Of a DNA stretch of 64,000 bases, positions 59,715-61,910 are shown in pieces (position 1 is the stretch's first letter; each line of letters opens with the position of its first letter). The notes below the pieces were generated by a model. The model did not search any database. It saw only the letters and a program-made list of their open reading frames with translations, and had not been told where the DNA came from. The stretch spans positions 55,997 through 119,996 of the forward strand of contig JAIKYQ010000065.1 of the NCBI GenBank assembly GCA_024683035.1. Direction: 5' to 3'. The DNA comes from Eubacterium sp. (GTDB taxonomy: Bacteria > Bacillota > Clostridia > Lachnospirales > Lachnospiraceae). Made by a program: the position numbers and the translations under genes.

Positions 59715-60476
59715 TCAGCGAATCCCTTTCGTCCTGTAATCCCAGTCGTTGGCATCGAGATCCCTGATCGCTTCCGTACATGCCTTGACAAGCACGTCTT
59801 CCATCATTTTGCCTTTTTCCGGCGTTGCCTTCGTGGGATCGCCGGTGGCAGCACAATTGGTCAGTTCGGCAAAATCCCATTTTACATCCACATACGGGGG
59901 AAGGCTGTCCGGCACAAAGCCCTTGGCCTGATCCGGTTCGTTCCACTGCGGATACAGATGATACGCGATCGAACTCTCTCCCTCTCCGGCATGTCCGAGG
60001 CCATCCCAGACCTCAAAGGTGCCCTCAGGCAGCAGTTCTCCGGCCGTGACCCACCAGGCAGGCAGTGCGACTATGCGGGCTTCCGGATATTTTTCTTTTA
60101 TTTTGCGGGATGCGACTTCGATCGGAGCTATGTTGCCGTCATGTCCGTTCATCACAAAGATATGAGTCACGCCGTTACGCAAAACCGATTCCATCACGTC
60201 AAACAACACCTGTGTTACAGTATCGTAACCGAGTGTCAGCGTAAACGGGAACGTGTCATAATGGGCACTATATCCGACCGTAACCGGAGGAAGCACAAGA
60301 AGATCATCAAACTGATCTGCGACCTTGCAGGAAAGCATATAGGAAACTAAAGTGTCCGTACCTTCTGCCAGATGATTGCCGTGTGCCTCACAGGAGCCGA
60401 CGGCAAGGATCACCTTGTTGAATTTTCTTTTTTTGACCTGATGTGCAGTCAGTTTCATTAATTCATTGTTCGCCAT
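59715..60476 (-). CDS. Creatininase-family protein
   Basis: ILAVGSCEAHGNHLAEGTDTLVSYMLSCKVAD; IFVMNGHDGNIAPIEVASRKIKEKYP; GHAGEGESSIAYHL. Confidence 0.9.
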   Translation of the reverse strand: MANNELMKLTAHQVKKRKFNKVILAVGSCEAHGNHLAEGTDTLVSYMLSCKVADQFDDLLVLPPVTVGYSAHYDTFPFTLTLGYDTVTQVLFDVMESVLRNGVTHIFVMNGHDGNIAPIEVASRKIKEKYPEARIVALPAWWVTAGELLPEGTFEVWDGLGHAGEGESSIAYHLYPQWNEPDQAKGFVPDSLPPYVDVKWDFAELTNCAATGDPTKATPEKGKMMEDVLVKACTEAIRDLDANDWDYRTKGIR

Positions 60477-60518
60477 GCCTTAAAACCTCCGTTGGGTAGT
60501 GTGTATGTGTTTTTTTTG

Positions 60519-60696
60519 ATAATAATACGGATTGTTCCGCACTTCGTGCTCTCGCAATCCTGCGAAACATTCGGATTTCACGGGGCCCCGTCCTGAGCCC
60601 CGTTTCATCCTCATGTTTCGGCGGGTCCCAAGCCCAATTGTCCATCAGCAAGCAAGCTTGCCATGTCCAATCGGGCTTTGACCCTGGTATTATTAT
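60519..60696 (-). ncRNA. Candidate structured RNA (four-way junction) or palindromic mobile element
   Basis: Closing stem 60519-60528/60687-60696; arms 60529-60560, 60563-60620 and 60623-60684; 0-2 nt linkers; found by manual folding. Confidence 0.5.
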
Positions 60697-61910
60697 ATGT
60701 TCTTTCTGAATTTCAGCATGCCGTCTTCAGCCTGGCAGATCACGACGGTCTTATCCGGAACGTGTTCGTCAGCTGTGAATGAAATAGTACCGGTAACGCC
60801 TTCGAAGTCCGTTGTGCCTTCGATCGCCGCACGGATGTTTTCCGGTGTCACGTCGTCGCCGCAGGCTTCGATCGCAGCCGCAATGATGTGTGCCGCGTCA
60901 TAGCCGAGCGCTGCAAAGCCGTTTTCCGGAGCTTTACCGTATTTCTCGGTATAGGCAGCGATAAAGCCCTGTACGTTTTCTCCTTCGTCGTCCGCAGAGA
61001 AATGGGTGCCGCAGTAGACATCCTGGTTGGCAAGGTCACCCGCCACGCCCCACAGATCGGTATCCCAGCCGTCGCCGGAGATCATCGGAGCTTTCACGCC
61101 TTTGGAACGGAACTGTTCGATCACGGTGCTGGCATCGTCCGGACCGGTGGCCATGAAGAGAATGCCGCATTCTTCACCGAGATCCTGATAGCGGGCAATC
61201 TGTGCGGAATAATCATAGTCGCCGCTGGCAAAGAAGTCCTGCAGAACGATCTCGCCGCCGAGCTCTTCAAAATGAGCCATGAAGTAATCGGAGAGGTTTG
61301 TCGTATAGCTCATGGAATTATCCGTAAGAACATACGCCGTCGTAGCGCCGAGTTCTTCAAAGGCATAATCCGCACAGGCTTCGGCACAGACATCATCGCC
61401 GAACGCTGTCAGAAATGCACAGTCGCCGACAACCGCCGGGATATCCGGGGTCGTAGCACCGGTGGAAAGGAAGGGAACTCCTGCTTCCTGCGCCACAGCA
61501 CCGGCCGCATACACAAAGTCACTGTCCGAAAAGCCGGTCAGCACCACTGCGCCGTCGGAATCGATCAGCTTCTTTGCATTGTTCGCACAAACAGCTGTAT
61601 CTGTCTGTCCGTCATAATACACAGCCTTCAGCTGTTTTCCGTTCACGCCGCCGGCCTCATTGATCTCTTCGATCGCCAGATCAAATCCCTTCTGCGACGG
61701 ATCGTCCAGCGTAGACTGATCACCTGTCACATTGAAAATGCCGCCGACAACGATTTCATCGTCTGCGAACACAGCTGTGCTGAGCATAGCTGTCGTCATG
61801 ACAGCAGCCGCTCCCATTGCCAGACACTTTCTGAAAATATCCTTTCTCATTTTAATACCTCCTGTCCAATGGTTGTTGAGTTGCTCTATCAGCAAGACTT
61901 TCGGCAGCAA
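60693..61910 (-). CDS. livK: Branched-chain amino acid-type ABC transporter substrate-binding protein
   Basis: Signal peptide; VVGGIFNVTGDQSTLDDPSQKGFDLAIEEINEAGGVNGKQLKAVYYDGQTD; likely start MRKDIFRKCLAMG internal to the ORF. Confidence 0.88.
   Translation of the reverse strand: MLPKVLLIEQLNNHWTGGIKMRKDIFRKCLAMGAAAVMTTAMLSTAVFADDEIVVGGIFNVTGDQSTLDDPSQKGFDLAIEEINEAGGVNGKQLKAVYYDGQTDTAVCANNAKKLIDSDGAVVLTGFSDSDFVYAAGAVAQEAGVPFLSTGATTPDIPAVVGDCAFLTAFGDDVCAEACADYAFEELGATTAYVLTDNSMSYTTNLSDYFMAHFEELGGEIVLQDFFASGDYDYSAQIARYQDLGEECGILFMATGPDDASTVIEQFRSKGVKAPMISGDGWDTDLWGVAGDLANQDVYCGTHFSADDEGENVQGFIAAYTEKYGKAPENGFAALGYDAAHIIAAAIEACGDDVTPENIRAAIEGTTDFEGVTGTISFTADEHVPDKTVVICQAEDGMLKFRKNI

Follow-up and report, generated by a model that had tools for sequence, protein, structure and literature searches.

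A Clostridiales-1 (RF01699) sequence between livK and a creatininase gene appears to be a copy of a small MITE-like transposable element of Lachnospiraceae

Introduction

Clostridiales-1 was published in 2010 without an assigned function (Weinberg et al., 2010, PMC2864571). The main text of that paper, which names Clostridiales-1 in a table only, gives it as 'probably' RNA and probably not cis-regulatory, with Clostridiales and the human gut as its source, and does not mention mobility. Our literature search found no source on the family besides this main text. Rfam catalogues the family as RF01699 ('Gene; sRNA'). The sequence described here lies in a window of 64,000 nucleotides (the whole stretch of DNA that was analysed) and shares with RF01699 a full-length covariance-model match of 130 bits, the fold and the host group (Clostridiales, human gut). 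The model ends about 30 nt before the right end of the TGAT-ended element that we define below. What appears to be new is the nature of the RF01699 family, which appears to be a MITE-like transposable element and not an sRNA gene.

Among described bacterial repeats, the ERIC, Correia/NEMIS and RUP MITEs resemble the Clostridiales-1 element in a size under ~215 bp, the lack of a gene, inverted ends and target duplications, as well as in their many intergenic copies, long stem-loops and co-transcription with neighbours (PMC2229807, PMC10969869). The Clostridiales-1 element differs from them in having its own sequence and ends, a Lachnospiraceae host and three hairpins set in a junction. The target is also different, being 5 bp of the form TNNNA, in contrast to the TA dinucleotide named for ERIC, Correia/NEMIS and RUP (PMC2229807, PMC10969869). 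REP and REPIN sequences, which are moved by RAYT transposases, are likewise dispersed structured intergenic repeats of bacteria, but the Clostridiales-1 element is a much larger unit and has target duplications.

Results and Discussion

A cmscan search of the whole window against Rfam 15 returned a single match, to the full RF01699 model at 130.1 bits (cut-off 48). An earlier note, made from the sequence alone, had proposed an undescribed structured RNA here, and by that note's own test the RF01699 match removes this reading. Its structural description fared better. The minus-strand fold of 60519-60696, with a P0 of 10 pairs, P1, P3, P4 and symmetric GA/GA internal loops, was reproduced, with a minimum free energy of -95.7 kcal/mol over 221 nt as against -52.6 +/- 4.5 in dinucleotide shuffles (z -9.6; none of 200 reached it). 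The plus strand of this segment also folds stably (-78.2, z -6.6), as is expected of palindromic DNA. Pfam searches bore out both neighbours that the note had named, livK (Peripla_BP_6) and creatininase (Table 1), and the limits it gave, from the livK stop codon to about 40 nt before the creatininase start, agree with our measurements: P0 includes the livK stop TAA (60693-60695, C-terminus FRKNI*) in its 5' arm and finishes, on its 3' side, 42 nt upstream of the creatininase ATG at 60476.

Table 1. Features of the Clostridiales-1 locus in the window. The coordinates of livK are those of the portion used in searches.
Feature	Position	Strand	Evidence
RF01699 (Clostridiales-1) match, model 1-166, repeat core	60520..60692	-	cmscan 130.1 bits, E 1.7e-29, gathering score 48
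P0 5' arm (AUAAUAAUAC), overlaps livK stop TAA	60687..60696	-	fold, sequence, comparison with other copies
P1 long hairpin, GCUUGC loop region	60623..60684	-	sequence, fold, Rfam match, alignment
P3 hairpin, conserved AUGAG / CGAAU purine internal loops	60563..60620	-	sequence, fold, alignment, covariation
P4 hairpin (GGAUUG..CAAUCC), conserved purine-rich internal loop	60529..60560	-	sequence, fold, alignment, covariation
P0 3' arm (GUAUUAUUAU)	60519..60528	-	sequence, fold, comparison with copies
livK-type periplasmic branched-chain amino acid binding protein, upstream neighbour outside the element	60693..61850	-	ORF, Pfam Peripla_BP_6 E 2e-66
Creatininase family protein, downstream neighbour outside the element	59715..60476	-	ORF, Pfam PF02633 E 1e-53

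A riboswitch or attenuator was among the possibilities in the earlier note, and a position 42 nt before a gene start and an elaborate four-way junction might be expected if the creatininase gene were under such cis-regulation. However, the spacer between livK and the creatininase gene carries no RF01699 match in six other Lachnospiraceae, where it measures ~100-120 nt as compared to 216 nt in the window; in the nearest relative, G013, the contig breaks off within the creatininase gene and the assembly contains no livK. The six spacers rule out a creatininase-specific regulator and by themselves largely refute the riboswitch reading. In addition, the neighbours of other copies are varied, a search of the transcribed strand for a terminator gave neither a terminator-like site nor a terminator-like alternative fold, and the authors of the 2010 study, in its main text, judged the family probably not cis-regulatory (PMC2864571). 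We therefore give this explanation almost no weight.

The distribution of RF01699 matches is that of a repeat. The window genome, an 82% complete draft, contains eight matches over the cut-off, plus fragments. All 16 of the 16 genomes from its genus were matched, many of them with 20 to at least 38 copies (38 candidates were scored), and near-identical copies occur at unrelated sites, for example six of equal score in G015. Other genera of the same family also had matches, as did two genomes from other families in the order. In an even sample across the phylum, with few candidates per genome scored, 4 of 399 genomes were positive, all from the same family. Within the GTDB collection, the nearest relatives of this locus belong to uncultured Lachnospiraceae. 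Many contigs start inside copies, so that the draft assemblies probably undercount the repeat; these include C7, C8, C23, C36, C42 and C43 of G017, and C119 and C120 of the window genome (G000), whose starts are nearly identical. A plasmid search with a full copy from G017 gave no match. A phage search with the window copy gave two partial, unannotated matches, to records MT835932.1 and MT839471.1 from human fecal samples, which cover 60-65% of the query at ~74% identity.

We set the ends of the element where identity stops between recent copies within G015, G017 and G023. The TGAT-ended subfamily starts with TGAT and ends with ATCA about 30 nt past the Rfam model, in a short extra hairpin, and its full-length copies are 181-213 bp long (the window core is 173 bp) and contain no transposase gene. 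The inverted ends are imperfect and follow the pattern TGATN6GYCAAAAG, which had 136 matches in 8 genomes compared to 2 for a reversed control pattern. Direct repeats of 5 bp, such as TGTAA, TAGTA and TCTGA, immediately flank copies. Among the 37 copies with a right end recognisable by a motif rule, which was devised after viewing the copies and makes no use of the flanking five bases, 24 had an exact 5-bp target duplication, and every one of these was TNNNA; when the right flanks were shuffled 10,000 times, the mean count was 1.8 and the highest 8.

G004 also contains many pairs of ends at a shorter distance. The copies of 76-102 bp that were retrieved from this genome keep both ends and are without P3 and P4, and further copies of 140-169 bp are partly deleted. 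Exact 5-bp duplications flanked 14 of the 19 copies in this mostly shortened set, which includes four longer copies also present in the set of 37 (mean 1.4 and maximum 8 after shuffling). At the gathering threshold, Rfam misses eight loci of such short copies. Since short copies without P3 and P4 carry duplications, these two hairpins, although strongly conserved in the RNA model, are dispensable for spread.

We then looked for empty sites, using the left flanks of 12 copies to search sister genomes. The site occupied by copy L098 in G008 is empty in G006 (L194), where the adjoining left flank is 95% identical and the junction is restored within 1 nt. For L100 too, an empty site was seen, in L184, where the junction is near-precise but less exact than that of L098/L194. 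The sequence beside the site was highly diverged between L099 and L202, and two comparisons for L149 gave no information on the site.

Taken together, the dispersed copies, inverted ends, TNNNA duplications, empty sites, short copies with duplications and element-free orthologous spacers indicate that the window sequence is very probably a copy of a small non-autonomous MITE-like DNA transposable element of Lachnospiraceae, catalogued as the RF01699 sRNA. Mobility of the TGAT-ended subfamily is well supported. The earlier note had listed a palindromic MITE- or REP-like repeat among its possibilities, and had reasoned that scattered copies unrelated to gene context would argue for a mobile repeat. 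The copies are indeed dispersed, often near-identical at unrelated sites and varied in their neighbours, and the proposal is borne out in the more precise form of a MITE-like element with inverted ends and TNNNA duplications. The P0 arms, which the note had offered as possible terminal inverted repeats, are near them, but the right end of full-length copies is about 30 nt farther out, in the hairpin that Rfam omits.

A REP/BIME-like palindrome moved by a RAYT (Y1) single-strand transposase would also produce many dispersed hairpins, head-to-tail tandem copies and stem amplification. However, RAYT/IS200-type transposition is not known to leave a target duplication, whereas 5-bp duplications are common in this family. 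The unit of 76-213 bp is also far from the 20-40 bp given for REPs (PMC3733652), and we consider movement of this kind highly improbable.

We propose instead that a transposase supplied in trans would recognise the ends of the MITE-like element and paste it into AT-rich intergenic DNA; the fixed 5-bp duplication suggests that this enzyme is probably of the DDE type. The fold would be a consequence of nested-palindrome DNA, with arms that may be kept matched partly by whole-stem exchange between copies. Inside an operon, as in the window, the element is probably transcribed along with its neighbours, and might in that case influence how the mRNA is processed or how stable it is. A search of the draft genomes for exact or near-exact ends found no autonomous element or transposase flanked by inward matching ends. 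The ends of IS3-family (IS150-type) elements, which presumably begin with TG, carry an inner CAAAAG-like motif and make 3-5 bp duplications, are alike and provide a lead. However, only 4 of the 10 genomes tested yielded PF13276, the IS3 OrfB domain, such ends were missing from all four loci, and an IS3-family parent was rejected. We also treated as chance an inward pair of ends 3.76 kb apart with TATCA repeats (L157 in G015), the left end of which belongs to an ordinary short copy that has a right end too; the ORFs within the pair, inspected by eye, included a branching-enzyme-like frame and no evident transposase.

Pairing in the family covaries very strongly. In a sequence-only alignment of copies, 39 of 42 pairs had changed on both sides and 93% of cells were paired, a result reached in 0 of 500 shuffles, while slid structures collapsed. 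Compensatory changes in homologues, the check that the earlier note had set, are thus abundant. The unpaired purines of P3 and P4 are, moreover, invariant across very divergent copies. These observations would fit an amplified structured RNA, in which the P3/P4 core acts as RNA (in mRNA processing or stability, or as a small RNA), mobility is the means of spread, and transcribed, co-oriented copies benefit the host or the element. However, one-sided pair changes were rare, and G-U pairs made up 2.3% of pairs on the RNA strand and 1.8% on the complement, whereas the same method gave 10.1% and 4.8% for 33 tRNAs of G008, a genome of the same genus. The near equality of the two strands of the repeat gives no sign of strand-specific RNA pairing, and the spread of copies without P3 and P4 also speaks against this reading, which we regard as possible but unlikely.

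Comparison of sites shared between genomes suggests another source for the covariation. At four sites common to G006 and G008 (L145-L148 compared with L101, L110, L103 and L111), the left flanks are 92-100% identical over 60 nt, yet the stems differ and stay paired. The P1 hairpin of L146 resembles that of other copies (TTTCGGAGC type) and not that of its orthologue L110. From these four pairs, which were read by eye, we infer that covariation may have arisen partly by exchange of stem modules between copies or by palindrome correction. Given the scarcity of G-U pairs and the apparent swapping of stems where sites are shared, covariation is weak evidence for RNA function here.

The top strand folded more stably than its complement in 49 of 50 non-redundant copies, by a mean of 9.4 kcal/mol, which might again be taken to favour an amplified RNA. 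We attribute this difference to the purine-rich loops, and reject RNA selection as its cause because G-U pairs are without clear strand bias. Orientation provides a further point on the same side. Among the best-scoring copies, those with both flanking genes in the same direction were co-oriented with them in a ratio of 41 to 14 (p 4e-4), and the downstream gene was on the strand of the element in 64 cases against 28 (p 2e-4), but these counts rely on heuristic ORF calls, of which at least one, for the gene upstream of the window copy, was mislabelled, and include some insertions common to several genomes. The bias is a hint of an RNA-level effect, and may be due either to use or to selection against antisense effects. 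Neither the conserved unpaired purines of P3 and P4 nor the 41 to 14 co-orientation is required by purely selfish DNA. It is possible, though unlikely, that P3/P4 is a functional RNA module carried on the transposon, with purine loops and co-orientation that reflect a use in mRNA processing or stabilisation, and that stem swapping at the same time yields covariation without selection on each pair.

What is used in genome annotation as a curated sRNA family would seem to be a transposable element whose ends and target are defined. In that case, the RF01699 annotations, of which a genome of this bacterial family often has tens, mark mobile repeats, and the model needs a 3' extension. The family also provides a caution, as palindromic mobile DNA can give strong covariation: the usual support for a structured RNA is present here, though the evidence for mobility favours DNA. 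Should the stem-swapping reading be true, covariation tests would be liable to report too many structured RNAs when applied to mobile palindromes. The presence of many copies that differ in age makes this a convenient system for testing the effects of repeats on operon mRNAs.

For the window copy itself, the best reading is that it is old and somewhat degenerate. Of the copies retrieved, L114 is the closest to it, with 76% identity over 140 nt. The left end, TAATACCAGGGTCAAAG, is a degenerate form of the consensus and was placed by homology at the 5' arm of P0, where TAATACC in the window corresponds to TGATACC elsewhere; the left flank TATAA fits TNNNA, and the 5' strand of P1 contains the degenerate left terminal repeat (GGGTCAAAG). 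Downstream of the 3' arm of P0, the terminal hairpin of ~30 nt and the ATCA end of full-length relatives were not recognised, which leaves the left end as the only recognisable one, and a search for a target duplication gave TATAA against AAAAA if ATCA at 60517-60520 is taken as the end. The mobility of this copy thus follows from membership of the family, and its placement in the TGAT-ended subfamily is based on homology. Of 111 copies from the family, 27 have a P0 that extends outward by four pairs or more, where shuffling predicts 2.3; in the window copy it continues for a few pairs outward of the Rfam model, just under this count.

Other copies varied in their ends and internal organisation. 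A second subfamily (L101-L111 and L137-L150), with TAAGTCC or TAAGCTC ends, has longer P0 arms (ACTGTATAAG/CTTATACAGT) and lacks a clear target duplication. L132 (G007:C66) is flanked by an 11-bp inverted repeat (gagtcttttg/caaaagactc plus one more pair), as if it had been inserted in the loop of a host hairpin. By our ORF rule, the upstream reading frame at L054, L058, L063, L073, L080, L110, L116 and L013 ends exactly at the first codon of the element, TGA or TAA, so that the element supplies or abuts the stop codon. At L069, L061, L076, L078, L081 and L079, whole copies or single modules are amplified head-to-tail, often directly before a gene start; a 98-nt P3-P4 unit is repeated in L069, and the P4 hairpin in L078.
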